Shown piece after piece: positions 2,658 to 28,737 of a stretch of 50,602 nt of DNA. Source of the stretch: a virus; IMG/VR virus record IMGVR_UViG_3300021379_000808, positions 1 through 50,602 of that record; one strand, written 5' to 3'. Each line of letters starts with the position of its first letter. Within the stretch, counting starts at the first letter, position 1. Position numbers and translations under genes: made by a program. A model generated the notes under the pieces. The model was not told the origin of the DNA. It made no database searches and saw only the letters and a program-made list of their open reading frames with translations.

Positions 2658-3236
2658 TTAAAATTCGACCCATCCAGTCATAATATATTTGGTGTTGCTC
2701 AAGGGCGGATTGCCTCTGTGCGTATGCGTAAAGCCTGCCGGCCAAAGTAGAATATCTCCAGCCTTTGGCTTAAACCTTTTCCCGTAGTACAAGAACTCTG
2801 TCTCTCCGCCTTCCTCGACATCGTTTAGATAAAGAATGTAAGTCAGCACCCTATTCGATGACTGCCGATTCATATTCTCTGTATGCCAAATGTGGTAGCC
2901 CTCAGTGGGCTCCGTCTTCTGGACCTTGTGGTGCCAGATGTGGTGCTTGTCGAAGTCGTGGAGTATCTGCCACTTGCCCGAATATTCAGAGTAAACCTCA
3001 CCCCAAAACACTTGGTTGAAATCAGCAACAATCTCCAGACCTTCTGCCTCTGTCTCCTTGAATGGGTAGTAGGCTACATCGTCTTTGTTTAGCTTGTATC
3101 CTTCTCCGTTGGCCTGTCTGTCTATGACGTTACCAACAGAGTTGGCTTTATCGAACTGCTCAATGACCTTTTTGCAGTAGTCATCAGAGAAGGCAGACTC
3201 TTTGTGTAAAATAAAATCAGGGGCTTGAATTTTCAA
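2658..3236 (-). CDS. 2OG-Fe(II) oxygenase (prolyl-4-hydroxylase-like)
   Basis: 192 residues, the size of a single double-stranded beta-helix oxygenase domain. The iron site is visible as HTE (His118, Glu120) and a distal His in THTHRG (His171 or 173). Lys183 (NTKY) is placed to bind 2-oxoglutarate. The flanking GDILLWPAGFTH and VLTYILYLND segments fit the phage P4H-like family. These enzymes hydroxylate protein or nucleic-acid substrates using O2 and 2-oxoglutarate; the substrate cannot be read from sequence. The start overlaps the tail-chaperone-like gene by 20 bases, so it is translated with the tail genes. A terminator follows at 2636-2614. Tail or adhesin modification is an inference from position. 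Confidence 0.85.
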   Translation of the reverse strand: MKIQAPDFILHKESAFSDDYCKKVIEQFDKANSVGNVIDRQANGEGYKLNKDDVAYYPFKETEAEGLEIVADFNQVFWGEVYSEYSGKWQILHDFDKHHIWHHKVQKTEPTEGYHIWHTENMNRQSSNRVLTYILYLNDVEEGGETEFLYYGKRFKPKAGDILLWPAGFTHTHRGNPPLSNTKYIMTGWVEF

Positions 3237-10204: not shown

Positions 10205-11206
10205 TTAGACTTCCTTAGCGGCTACTTCTAAGCGGCACATCCAAGCTTGGTTAGCGATGAATGACTTGTGGTAAGTCTTCCAGCCAACAATGCCTTTCTG
10301 GCCCAGAGGATCAGACTTGTCTACCTGACCGGGGTTGATGATGGTGGGTGAAATAGCTTCCGCACCCTTCAGAGCAACGTGGCCATAAGCGTCTTTGCCG
10401 ACGTAAACGACTGGGTATACATCAGCGTTAGTGCCAGATGTAGAAACAACGCCGTTTGTTGAGGCCGTACCGCCAGCGTCTTCGATAGAAGAAAGAACAG
10501 GAGTGAGGATGTAGCGTACATCTTCAACCTTGCCGATCTCATAAGGAAGAGCCTTCATTGATCCGTACTTTTCAGTAGGAACAAATCCAGTCAAGTCGCG
10601 GATGTCTGATTCCAAGTCAGTGTGTGCAAACGCAATGAACGCCGCGTCAACAGCTTCAGTGCCGTACTTGACAGAAGACGACAGCATAGAAGTTACCTTC
10701 TTAGCGCGTTGTGCCTTGAGCTGACGAGTAACAGCTCGCTGACGAGCAAGCGTAATTACGTTATCAACGTCAGTACGAGCAGTGTCGGTAGACTCCGCAT
10801 AGAACACGTTAGTGCCGCCTTGGAGAACACCCCACATCAAAGTCTCGATGGTTTCTGCGGCTTGCTCACCACACATCATCGCTGAATCCTTGAGTACAGG
10901 ATCTTCGGCCAAGTCATGAACAACGTCAGTGATTTCAACGATATCACCATACTGGCTCAGAGTGACTGTTACGTCTTCGTAGTTCATCTGAGTTGCAGTT
11001 GGCGTGGCGCCTTCTGTCAGTGGAGTTGTTGCTACCGCGAAAGGAATAGGTCGTCGGAACTTAACAACCTGCGCCTTGTTCTTGGGCATTGGCTTTGTCA
11101 TACCAAACTTTGAAAGACAAAGGATGGGCTCTGCGTGAGCGAGCATTTCTTTTGCCGCATACGCTTGGGTCCGCTGTGAAACGGAGGTATAAGTTGTCGT
11201 TGCCAT
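10205..11206 (-). CDS. Major capsid protein, N4-gp56 family
   Basis: 333 residues. The N-terminal arm (YTSVSQRTQAYAAKEMLAHAEP), the segment TPLTEGATP followed by VTLSQYGDIVEITDVVHD, and GEQAAETIETLMWGVL are hallmarks of N4-gp56-type HK97-fold capsid proteins. No prohead protease is seen beside it, and the N-terminus is short, so maturation probably relies on the separate scaffold rather than cleavage. AGGAGACTTTTACAATG gives a strong ribosome-binding site. A GC-rich terminator follows the gene, consistent with very high expression. Confidence 0.85.
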   Translation of the reverse strand: MATTTYTSVSQRTQAYAAKEMLAHAEPILCLSKFGMTKPMPKNKAQVVKFRRPIPFAVATTPLTEGATPTATQMNYEDVTVTLSQYGDIVEITDVVHDLAEDPVLKDSAMMCGEQAAETIETLMWGVLQGGTNVFYAESTDTARTDVDNVITLARQRAVTRQLKAQRAKKVTSMLSSSVKYGTEAVDAAFIAFAHTDLESDIRDLTGFVPTEKYGSMKALPYEIGKVEDVRYILTPVLSSIEDAGGTASTNGVVSTSGTNADVYPVVYVGKDAYGHVALKGAEAISPTIINPGQVDKSDPLGQKGIVGWKTYHKSFIANQAWMCRLEVAAKEV

Positions 11207-26495: not shown

Positions 26496-26504
26496 TACAC
26501 CTAT

Positions 26505-26519
26505 CAACCAATTTGGTTG
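26505..26519. promoter_or_regulatory. CAACCAA/TTGGTTG inverted repeat
   Basis: Two perfect 7-base arms, CAACCAA and TTGGTTG, flank a single T just past the expected transcription start. It could be a second operator or the first hairpin of the leader RNA. Half-sites of related form (GGTTGT/ACAACC) occur at 34927-34959. Confidence 0.4.
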
Positions 26520-26653
26520 GCTGGCTACGAGGAGCCCAGACCCAAACCCTGCGGGAGACAACCCACCAAACCGGCGACCACTGAGTCAACCAGTGAGAGA
26601 CGACACCAAACGAGCACGATGAGCACCACCACCGGAGACGGCGTGGGAACATA
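26520..26653 (+). other. Untranslated leader of the accessory operon
   Basis: No supported gene lies between the promoter and the first ribozyme. An 11-codon frame at 26619-26654 (starting MSTTTGDG) lacks a good ribosome-binding site. A short hairpin CACTG/CAGTG occurs near 26578-26594. The whole control region from 26338 to 26725 therefore holds promoters, palindromes and RNA structure but no confirmed protein. Confidence 0.5.
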
Positions 26654-26705
26654 GCGTCAACACCTAATGCGAGGTGTTCTGATGATGGCCAGCAGGCCGA
26701 AACGC
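26654..26705 (+). ncRNA. Hammerhead self-cleaving ribozyme, type III
   Basis: In order: stem III 5' strand GCGU (26654-26657); cleavage nucleotide C17 (26658, triplet GUC); stem I AACACCU/AGGUGUU (26659-26665 with 26672-26678, 7 bp, loop AAUGCG); core CUGAUGA (26679-26685); an extra U (26686); stem II GGCC/GGCC (26687-26690 with 26695-26698, loop AGCA); core GAAA (26699-26702), whose last A starts stem III 3' strand ACGC (26702-26705). All core bases of the hammerhead consensus are present and every stem is perfectly paired. Opening through stem III makes it type III. Predicted cut is between 26658 and 26659, leaving a 5'-OH RNA 67 bases before the first start codon. The U after CUGAUGA is non-consensus. 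Confidence 0.85.
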
Positions 26706-26725
26706 AAAACAACGGAGTGTTACCA

Positions 26726-26911
26726 ATGCAGACCTTTGTATGCAAGGGTCGAGCGGGTAAGTGGTCCTACGGTTACCTTGCCGAGCCCGGCAAGCGAAAC
26801 GTGTGGGTGTACACCAACGGTGAGGTCACATACCGACCGCTTGGTGGAAACAACTTGATGGCCGCTTCAAGCGAAGCCACCACGTTGCACCGCAACTCGC
26901 TCGAGTCCTGA
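26726..26911 (+). CDS. 61-residue protein, first gene after the type III ribozyme
   Basis: ATG at 26726 follows GGAGTGTT at 26713-26720. The protein is small, basic/aromatic and beta-rich (MQTFVCKGRAGKWSYGYL; NVWVYTNGEVTYRPLGG) with a Ser/Thr-rich tail. No known family. It may be an early host-takeover or anti-defence protein, considering that it shares its operon with ArdC. An upstream TTG at 26717 would overlap the ribosome-binding site and is rejected. Confidence 0.7.
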   Translation: MQTFVCKGRAGKWSYGYLAEPGKRNVWVYTNGEVTYRPLGGNNLMAASSEATTLHRNSLES

Positions 26912-26920
26912 ATTAGATTC

Positions 26921-26955
26921 GGAGTCTGACCCACTTGGCAACAGAACGGGTCTCC
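26921..26955 (+). ncRNA. Structured leader between the two ribozymes
   Basis: GGAG (26921-26924) pairs with CUCC (26952-26955) and ACCC (26929-26932) with GGGU (26948-26951), leaving a UCUG bulge and a 15-base loop. CUGA, GAAC and GUC occur in the order of a type I hammerhead, but CUGAnGA and GAAA are not intact, so it is not called a ribozyme. It may be a decayed copy or another structured element. Confidence 0.4.
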
Positions 26956-26982
26956 CCTTTTAAAACAACTGGAGTGTTCAAT

Positions 26983-27429
26983 ATGACTACAAAAACATTG
27001 AAGCAAATCAACGCAGAACTCGCAGAGACCTCAGCCCAGCTCGAAGCTTTGGCGGATGTCCTGAGAGAAGCTAAGCAACACGTAGCTGACAAGACCCGGG
27101 AGGTCAGAGAGCTGGAGCGTTCAAGAACCGAGACGGCAGAGCGTGAACGGCGCAACTGGGTGAATCGCAACCGCTCGAAGGCCAAGCGATTAGCGGCCAA
27201 GTACGGTATCGAGATCGAGGACGAGTCGATCAGAGACTACGATGGATATGACCTGCGCCACTGGGTAGGTCAGCCAGACTGGCTTGAAGGTGACGACCCG
27301 CTCACAGATGGTCACTTCAGTCACTGCTGGAGCGACACTGTTTGGCTTGTCGAGTTTTACGCCAAGCATCACCCATCTCACCCAGATCACGAGAACCGTG
27401 AGCACAGGGTTCATAGCCCTCACTGCTAA
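26983..27429 (+). CDS. 148-residue coiled-coil protein
   Basis: ATG at 26983 follows GGAGTGTT. Residues about 4-60 are coiled coil (LKQINAELAETSAQLEALADVLREAK), then a basic helix (RRNWVNRNRSKAKRLAAKYG). The C-terminal half is Asp/Trp/His-rich (YDGYDLRHWVGQPDWLEGDD; HCWSDTVWLVEFYAKHHPSHPDHEN) and may bind metal. No known family. Its stop codon is one base before the type I hammerhead, so cleavage would trim its mRNA 3' end. Anti-defence or host-takeover function is inferred from context only. Confidence 0.7.
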   Translation: MTTKTLKQINAELAETSAQLEALADVLREAKQHVADKTREVRELERSRTETAERERRNWVNRNRSKAKRLAAKYGIEIEDESIRDYDGYDLRHWVGQPDWLEGDDPLTDGHFSHCWSDTVWLVEFYAKHHPSHPDHENREHRVHSPHC

Positions 27430-27430
27430 A

Positions 27431-27485
27431 CCCGTCTGACGATGGCTGGAGGGATACCAGCCGAAACGCCTCCGGGCGTCACGGG
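27431..27485 (+). ncRNA. Hammerhead self-cleaving ribozyme, type I
   Basis: In order: stem I 5' strand CCCGU (27431-27435); core CUGACGA (27436-27442); extra U (27443); stem II GGCUGG/CCAGCC (27444-27449 with 27457-27462, 7-base loop); core GAAA (27463-27466), its last A opening stem III ACGCC/GGCGU (27466-27470 with 27475-27479, loop UCCG); C17 (27480, triplet GUC); stem I 3' strand ACGGG (27481-27485). All three stems are perfect and the conserved core is complete apart from the extra U shared with the first ribozyme. Opening through stem I makes it type I. Predicted cut is between 27480 and 27481, separating the coiled-coil gene from ardC and leaving a 42-base ardC leader. Confidence 0.88.
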
Positions 27486-27522
27486 AATCCACCCGACAAC
27501 ATACAAAAATTTGGAGTGTTTT

Positions 27523-28383
27523 ATGACTAAGAAAAAAGTTGATGCCTATCAGGTAATCACGGACAAAGTAATCGCGATGCTAGAGACTCACGGGTCAGGC
27601 TGGACTAAGCCTTGGTCTGACAGCCTCGCAGGATCGCCTGTAAGCCTTTCCACCGGCAACCCCTATCGAGGTATCAACCGACTGCTACTCGGCCTTGAGG
27701 GACGTTCTGATGCGCGCTGGGGCACATACAAGGCTTGGTCAGAGAAGGGCGGTCAGGTTCGTAAGGGCGAGAAGGGTACTGCGGTTATCTTCTTTAAGCC
27801 CTTAGAGATTCGAGGTGATGACGGTGAGGTCGAGAAGAAGATCCCCTTTGCCCGTATATACAATGTATTCAATGCCGAGCAAGTTGACGGTATCGAATTG
27901 ATCCAACCTGAAGAGCTGACCCCCATAGAGTTAGATCAGCGTTGCGAGGATTTCATTGCCGAGACTGCCGCGCAAATCCGATTTGGTGGTGACTCTGCGT
28001 TCTACTCCCCGGTTGTCGATTACATCGGTATGCCGAGACCAGAGGCCTTTGAGTCTACTGCCGGTTACTACGGCGTCCTACTGCACGAGCTCACTCACTG
28101 GACTGGTCACTCTACCCGGTGCGACCGCAAGATCCTCAATAGCTTTGGTAACGAGGACTATGCGTTCGAGGAGCTGGTTGCCGAGCTAGGCGCCACCTTC
28201 CTTTGTGCCGATTTAGGTATCGAAATAGAGCCCCGCGAGGATCATGCACAGTATATCGCAAGCTGGCTCAAAGCGCTACGAAACGACAAGAAATTGATCG
28301 TTAAAGCGGCCAAGCAAGCCCAGCTCGCAAGCGAGTTCTTGCACGGCCTCCAAACAGAAAATCAACTAGCAGAGGCCGCATAA
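27523..28383 (+). CDS. ardC: ArdC-like antirestriction protein
   Basis: 286 residues, close to ArdC of plasmids (about 300). The N-terminal domain (about 3-115) has the ArdC pattern: YQVITDKVIAMLETHGSGWTKPW, NPYRGINRLLL, WGTYKAWSEKGGQVRKGEKG, and binds single-stranded DNA in known members. The C-terminal domain is a zincin-like metallopeptidase with HELTHWTGH (His188, Glu189, His192) and a downstream EELVAELGA. Such proteins protect incoming DNA from restriction. ATG at 27523 follows GGAGTGTT. The ribozyme cut lies 42 bases upstream and a hairpin encloses the stop codon. Confidence 0.88.
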   Translation: MTKKKVDAYQVITDKVIAMLETHGSGWTKPWSDSLAGSPVSLSTGNPYRGINRLLLGLEGRSDARWGTYKAWSEKGGQVRKGEKGTAVIFFKPLEIRGDDGEVEKKIPFARIYNVFNAEQVDGIELIQPEELTPIELDQRCEDFIAETAAQIRFGGDSAFYSPVVDYIGMPRPEAFESTAGYYGVLLHELTHWTGHSTRCDRKILNSFGNEDYAFEELVAELGATFLCADLGIEIEPREDHAQYIASWLKALRNDKKLIVKAAKQAQLASEFLHGLQTENQLAEAA

Positions 28384-28389
28384 GCGGCC
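28374..28389 (+). ncRNA. Hairpin around the ardC stop codon
   Basis: GGCCGCATAAGCGGCC is a perfect inverted repeat with 6-base arms and the ochre codon in the loop. The identical 16 bases occur at 28703-28718 around the next stop codon. No T-run follows, so it is not a terminator. mRNA stabilisation, processing or control of translational coupling are possible. Confidence 0.6.
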
Positions 28390-28403
28390 CGAGGGACAAG
28401 TAT

Positions 28404-28712
28404 ATGCAACCAATGCAAAAAGAAATCGTTAAAAAAATCGAAGCCTATGAAGGTATGGACCCAGCTAACGTGAGCGTAGCTGACCTGATCGCATACCAAC
28501 TGAGACTTACAACCTTGGTAAGTCGATACAATGCCAAAAACCCAGAACTCCGCCCAGTCCGAATTATGTTCTGCGGTAGTGGCGGCTTGATTGTTCATCT
28601 CGAATACCAGTACCTGAAGGTCTCACTGGAGCGGGTCAATGGGCGCCTCGACTGGCCCGATTCGCGTGATGTTTTGCAGGATTGGTACAACGACTACGAA
28701 CTGGCCGCATAA
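28404..28712 (+). CDS. 102-residue protein of unknown function
   Basis: ATG at 28404 after GAGGGA. The N-terminal half is helical (MQKEIVKKIEAYEGMDPANVSVADLIAYQLRL) and the C-terminal half is beta-rich (VRIMFCGSGGLIVHLEYQYL) with a Trp/Asp-rich end. No known family. It ends in the same Ala-Ala-stop hairpin as ardC. Location directly after ardC suggests an anti-defence or DNA-transfer accessory, by inference. Confidence 0.65.
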   Translation: MQPMQKEIVKKIEAYEGMDPANVSVADLIAYQLRLTTLVSRYNAKNPELRPVRIMFCGSGGLIVHLEYQYLKVSLERVNGRLDWPDSRDVLQDWYNDYELAA

Positions 28713-28718
28713 GCGGCC
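28703..28718 (+). ncRNA. Second hairpin around a stop codon
   Basis: Identical 16 bases to 28374-28389 (GGCCGCATAAGCGGCC), again centred on TAA. It is followed by TTTAACTGAGGAGAG, the ribosome-binding region of the next gene. Confidence 0.6.
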
Positions 28719-28737
28719 TTTAACTGAGGAGAGAAAA

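Follow-up and report, generated by a model that had tools for sequence, protein, structure and literature searches.

Hammerhead ribozymes of types I to III occur in clusters in prophages, where, according to the main text of Perreault et al. (2011; PMC3088659), they flank single genes or short blocks of genes and about 40% of them have a pseudoknot that links stems I and II. In an Agrobacterium array of that study, the anti-restriction gene ardA lies directly downstream of a hammerhead; cleavage was shown for three arrays, with comparable arrays cleaving in vitro and one flanking ardA cleaving in E. coli, so that hammerheads flanking prophage genes, including ardA, are already known. The job of prokaryotic hammerheads is regarded as an open question in a review of the field (PMC6155905). 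The locus described here lies in a window of 50,602 nucleotides of viral DNA, which is the whole stretch that was analysed. It resembles those arrays, as presented in the main text of Perreault et al. (2011), in that several same-strand hammerheads flank genes or short blocks (a type III and a type I in the window, six hammerheads in contig L029), and differs from them in that the anti-restriction gene is ardC instead of ardA and that copies with an extra U after A9 are in the majority.

A type I hammerhead immediately upstream of ardC had been proposed in a preliminary description, and this identification stands. The region 27431-27485, preceded by a stop codon plus one nucleotide (UAA-A), reads UAA-A-CCCGU-CUGACGA-U-GGCUGG-AGGGAUA-CCAGCC-GAAA(C)GCC-UCCG-GGCGU-C-ACGGG. 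All core letters are present (C3 U4 G5 A6 N7 G8 A9, G12 A13 A14, A15.1-U16.1 and C as H17), the stems are perfect, as had been claimed (5, 6 and 5 bp for stems I, II and III), stem I is the open one, and there is a tertiary contact between the stem I region and loop II. Similarly, the distances given earlier are correct, since the stop codon ends at 27429 and stem I starts at 27431, and 42 nt lie between the predicted cleavage site 27480/27481 and the ardC ATG at 27523. The downstream gene product is ArdC according to its domains, ArdcN (PF08401, E = 2.3e-29) and a zincin metallopeptidase (PF18818, E = 4.4e-50). U27443, which follows A9, is an inserted nucleotide with no partner in any stem. 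Comparative sequence evidence confirms 27431-27485 as a real type I hammerhead, for which self-cleavage is predicted, and the element reaches at least to 27490, where the pseudoknot ends, and probably to 27495. Self-cleavage by hammerheads leaves 2',3'-cyclic phosphate and 5'-OH ends.

Table. Features of the two hammerheads, the genes between them and ardC (window coordinates).
Feature	Position	Strand	Basis or remark
Type III hammerhead, GCGUC^AACACC...	26654..26705	+	Descriptor; extra U after A9 too; predicted cleavage after C26658
Gene cassette between the two ribozymes (ORFs 26726-26911, 26983-27429)	26722..27428	+	Replaced by unrelated genes in L001
Stem I 5' strand, CCCGU	27431..27435	+	1 nt past stop codon ending 27429; covaries in 52 relatives
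Catalytic core CUGACGA (C3-A9)	27436..27442	+	Sequence; columns invariant except N7
Extra U between A9 and stem II (position 10)	27443..27443	+	Sequence and 57 relatives
Stem-loop II, GGCUGG-AGGGAUA-CCAGCC	27444..27462	+	Fold, covariation
Loop II GGAU, pseudoknot 5' half	27452..27455	+	Covariation with 27487-27490
Core GAAA (G12 A13 A14 A15.1)	27463..27466	+	Sequence
Stem-loop III, ACGCC-UCCG-GGCGU	27466..27479	+	Fold, covariation
C17; predicted cleavage 27480/27481	27480..27480	+	Established hammerhead chemistry
Stem I 3' strand ACGGG, 5' end of downstream product	27481..27485	+	Sequence, covariation
Predicted 5'-terminal product hairpin, CGGG-AAUCCA-CCCG, -5.8 kcal/mol	27482..27495	+	Excludes stem I; fold and comparisons
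AUCC, pseudoknot 3' half	27487..27490	+	Covariation
ardC Shine-Dalgarno sequence GGAG	27513..27516	+	Sequence
ardC, ArdcN and MPTase-PolyVal anti-restriction protein, 286 aa	27523..28383	+	Domain matches

With a structural descriptor, exactly two hammerheads were detected in the window and none in 100 Markov-shuffled windows, and allowing one core mismatch added none over the whole window; the second match is the type III ribozyme, the other permutation that had been reported upstream. Core and topology classes of the two copies are the same as in the Rfam models RF00163 (Hammerhead_1) and RF00008 (Hammerhead_3). Over the local stretch, neither model matched the window copies even when E was allowed to rise to 10; the type I copy does not reach the gathering threshold of RF00163, this model at gathering score reported none of these phage type I copies in 12 tested loci, and at E ≤ 5 it reported nothing in the window or in six ArdC loci. 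Because Rfam reports no hammerhead in the window, the descriptor was the detector and the comparative evidence carries the weight. A covariance model built from relatives, with the window copy itself among the training sequences, scored the window type I copy at 80.8 bits (E = 6e-22). A scan for sigma-70 promoters found none, and the region gave no match to named phages by megablast.

To collect relatives, viral contigs were scanned both via ArdC and by pattern, and bacterial genomes were scanned once (a RecE-based control scan took in only 2 loci); this gave 57 distinct type I copies from the viral scans and 96 in all. They were found in contigs of Oscillospiraceae, Paenibacillus, Cohnella and others, with the best matches in named phages being Faecalibacterium phage FP_Brigit (at 52974-53037) and Salisaeta icosahedral phage 1 (at 10639-10707). 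A covariance search in related phages had been put forward as a check on the ribozyme, and indeed all three stems, together with a pseudoknot between loop II and the 3' flank (GGAU:AUCC in the window), covary in an alignment of 52 distinct copies. Stem I is paired in 100% of the cells, 18 of 21 pairs show two-sided changes, and none of 500 shuffles reached the 197 cells with such changes. The covariation score for stems and pseudoknot was 0.492, compared to 0.142 for shuffles and at most 0.092 for slid controls, where shuffle and permutation tests ignore the kinship of the copies and the slid control corrects for it in part. The pseudoknot by itself scored 0.385 against at most 0.153 in slid registers, and its central pair is AU in 19, UA in 15, CG in 6 and GC in 6 copies. 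Pseudoknots of such a kind in hammerheads were reported and tested by mutation earlier, according to the main text of PMC3088659; the preliminary description had not noted the one at this locus, nor the product hairpin and the cassette-border position treated below.

Several contigs hold 2-6 hammerhead copies between successive same-strand genes. In L029, six lie within 3.5 kb and three of them have a mutated U4 (U4C at 860-926, U4C at 1784-1850 and U4A at 2999-3063), which are possibly inactive copies. A RAGATH-5 RNA, a ribozyme class of Rfam, was observed at 4861-4913 of L146 and at 4865-4917 of L157, both of which also hold type I hammerheads; this is the likeness to phage gene clusters associated with RAGATH or twister and hammerhead ribozymes, and none was found in the window.

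The sequence shared around the cores of the two window ribozymes had been attributed either to common origin followed by rearrangement or to strong constraint. The letters common to types I and III, CUGANGA-U-GGC...GCC-GAAACGC, are the majority letters in unrelated type I phage hammerheads, and because the same letters dominate there, constraint explains them. A common origin by rearrangement is unsupported, the shared letters being consensus letters.

Of the 57 viral-scan copies, which form an unbiased set, 35 carry an inserted U after A9, one a G, one an A and none a C, and 20 have no insertion; the 96-copy count was not used because the search pattern had a fixed U. The extra U is missing from both ribozymes of L001, and in L002 only the type I copy has it. 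U27443 thus departs from a consensus core without insertion, a rule that is not strict and has known natural exceptions. The plus-strand hammerhead of CChMVd has an unpaired extra A10 between A9 and G10.1, and its replacement by U increased the trans-cleavage rate 3-4 fold, whereas C or G was harmful (PMC3705267). Both hammerheads share the unpaired nucleotide after A9; however, the viroid ribozyme acts in a rolling-circle context and has a loop-loop contact, whereas the phage copies have a Watson-Crick pseudoknot and already carry U. The natural base preference in the phage copies (U, no C) matches the CChMVd rate measurement. No mention of the extra U in phage hammerheads was found in the main texts of the literature. 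Judging from these copies, hammerheads with U after A9 seem to be common in phages and to go unflagged by Rfam, and annotation therefore probably undercounts phage ribozymes.

The 3' flank often repeats the 5' strand of stem I, and with this second copy the 5' end of the downstream product can fold on itself after cleavage. In the window, the product hairpin is predicted to be mutually exclusive with stem I; other examples are UACGG-AAUCCA-CCGUA (L027), GCGG-GAGA-CCGC (L030), GCGA-GAGA-UCGC (L156) and GCGGG-AGCCA-CCCGC (FP_Brigit). Of 82 copies, 47 can form a product hairpin of 4 bp or more, compared to a mean of 18.8 and a maximum of 29 for flank shuffles and a maximum of 35 for shuffles within flank classes; the hairpin is absent or weak in 35 copies, hence not universal. 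Pairing is 79% in one flank class and 75% in the other, and sliding the register left no more than 56% and 40%, respectively; the first 20 nt of the product fold at -4.56 kcal/mol versus -2.27 kcal/mol for shuffles. The difference in loops and registers between the classes argues for selection on the hairpin over target-site duplication. The downstream product of the type III ribozyme retains its own stem I hairpin, and therefore both types can yield a 5'-terminal stem-loop. We found no description of a product hairpin of phage hammerheads in the main texts of the literature.

Of 91 copies, 42 have the stop codon of an ORF (40 aa or longer) 0-3 nt before the start of stem I, compared to 1.7% of random positions, and the next ATG with a Shine-Dalgarno sequence usually lies 20-45 nt (about 30 nt) downstream of the ribozyme. 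Because the stop abuts stem I and the start signals follow closely, the spacer consists entirely of ribozyme and leader. The genes downstream are diverse and mostly of no known function. A specific tie to ardC was rejected, as ArdC accounts for only 2 of 43 diverse downstream genes, though several ArdC loci adjoin a hammerhead, which lies directly upstream of ArdC in the window, L001, L021/L184, L195 and L016 and directly downstream in L002, L015, L236 and L187/L190. Translation starting at the AUG inside the core (27442) was also discarded, since it is in frame with the downstream gene and stop-free in only 5 of 31 testable cases. The UGA of the core as stop codon of the upstream ORF occurred in 16 cases without an abutting stop, where about 9 are expected (base rate 19%), and is therefore convincing only for long ORFs (e.g., 228, 204 and 194 aa). 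In L030, L132, L080 and L008, this UGA (CUGANGA) ends an ORF of 113-228 aa, and the ribozyme core would double as stop codon. Both ardC (28370-28390) and the next ORF, 28404-28712 (28700-28720), terminate in a GGCCGC-AUAA-GCGGCC hairpin whose loop contains the stop codon. A leader/Shine-Dalgarno motif, GGAGTGTT, precedes three successive genes at 26713, 26970 and 27513 and is found again in L001; it lies at the cassette breakpoints or close to them.

We consider it likely that the pseudoknotted type I hammerhead cuts a rightward polycistronic phage RNA at 27480/27481 and yields separate mRNAs for exchangeable cassettes. The early polycistronic RNA would be split co-transcriptionally just before ardC. 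The folded ribozyme, with a 2',3'-cyclic phosphate, would form the 3' end of the upstream mRNA (ORF 26983-27429), right behind the stop codon of that ORF, and the ardC mRNA would start with 5'-OH-ACGGGAAUCCACCCG and could refold into the 5'-terminal hairpin. As this hairpin would capture both ribozyme-binding strands, that of stem I and that of the pseudoknot, it would help the product to dissociate, counteract religation and protect the 5' end. For the first gene, the upstream type III ribozyme would play the equivalent part, with the product retaining that ribozyme's own stem I hairpin at its 5' end. The outcome would be separately decaying and separately translated mRNAs of exchangeable cassettes whose borders are marked by ribozymes. 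Cleavage at this site is expected from hammerhead chemistry and, by analogy, from the demonstrated activity of comparable phage arrays. Against it speak the extra U, which deviates from the strict hammerhead consensus, the Rfam models, which leave the window copies unscored, and the pseudoknot-free MFE fold of a longer stretch, which favours structures breaking stem I, so that a fraction of the RNA could misfold. In hosts with RNase J, an mRNA with a 5'-OH end may be degraded and not protected, as is known from glmS, which counts against the proposal.

Alternatively, cleavage might be gated, for instance by translation termination at the stop codon next to stem I or by stem I and the product hairpin competing with each other, making ardC expression dependent on the speed of translation or transcription. 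The stop codon lies within the ribosome footprint of stem I in nearly half of the copies, and adding 14 nt to the leader switches the nested MFE prediction for 33 of 82 copies from stem I to the product hairpin. However, the stop-codon position is equally explained by compact genomes, the MFE ignores the pseudoknot, and the copies show no ligand pocket or conserved aptamer, their loops varying freely. We therefore regard such a regulated switch as unlikely.

The window and contig L001 are 86-90% identical over long blocks (about 87%) and both have kept the two ribozymes, but the genes between these are unrelated (window 26722-27428 versus L001 3268-3806). Homology breaks behind the type III ribozyme, at position 26721 of the leader, and before the type I ribozyme, at the stop codon (27429). 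Homology also breaks at the first base of the ribozyme in the pairs L027/L106 and L046/L055, 3 nt before it in L146/L157 (96% identical) and 26 nt behind it in L006/L008. Over 51 pairs, which were counted in both directions and are related to each other, homology was broken at 30 of 45 ribozyme borders and at 238 of 682 other gene borders (odds ratio 3.7). A count against a uniform background (36 breakpoints versus 12.3 expected) was set aside for this stricter gene-border control, both counting some related pairs repeatedly. The excess is suggestive, as the ribozymes may simply occupy variable accessory regions. As judged from these comparisons, such elements lie, in dozens of related phages, at gene borders where neighbouring genes were swapped. 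Homology ending at hammerheads between related phages was not found described in the main texts of the literature. Upstream of the type III ribozyme, the leader 26541-26660 is 98-100% identical to L001, compared to 77-93% for neighbouring sequence, and would be released by the ribozyme as a separate RNA; the stretch 26503-26658 folds no better than its shuffles.

The breakpoint excess also speaks for another reading, in which ribozyme and leader are a short unit that is duplicated from one gene border to another and provides recombination homology, with cleavage being incidental. In agreement with this, copies within one genome are 82-98% identical only over ribozyme and leader (L103, L157, L163, L164 and L236), and the core U4 is mutated in some copies. 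However, the strong covariation and the core conservation in most copies indicate selection on folding and catalysis, and a selfish or hitchhiking motif seems quite improbable.

Excision of the cassette was also considered, as two same-strand hammerheads bracket it and cuts after 26658 and 27480 would free an RNA of 822 nt whose 5'-OH and 2',3'-cyclic phosphate ends, an established and suitable chemistry, could be closed by RtcB or by ribozyme ligation. Retrozymes and other circular RNA elements carry tandem ribozymes of like type, whereas those flanking the cassette are of two types and are not repeats. Ligation would be hindered by the product hairpin, many loci show either a single ribozyme or an array at every gene, and circular or spliced products of phage hammerheads were sought by earlier authors and none was found, as stated in the main text of PMC3088659. 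Circularisation is thus very unlikely. A chance or inert resemblance to a hammerhead, which would fit the silence of Rfam, is next to negligible given no chance matches, heavy covariation and dozens of homologues at gene borders.

Separation of cassette mRNAs by cleavage thus being the favoured reading, a broader proposal is offered only tentatively: phage hammerheads may be insulating joints of swappable cassettes. Ribozyme and short leader would form a portable unit that gives homology for recombination, cuts the RNA of the incoming gene free from that of its neighbour and refolds the 3' product into a 5' hairpin, making the cut irreversible and capping the new mRNA. The hairpin prediction can be tested with compensatory mutants. 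Two phages that are about 87% identical, keep both ribozymes and exchange the genes between them are a natural comparison by which the role of bacterial hammerheads becomes testable. If the proposal is true, any gene dropped between two such joints would become an independent mRNA.
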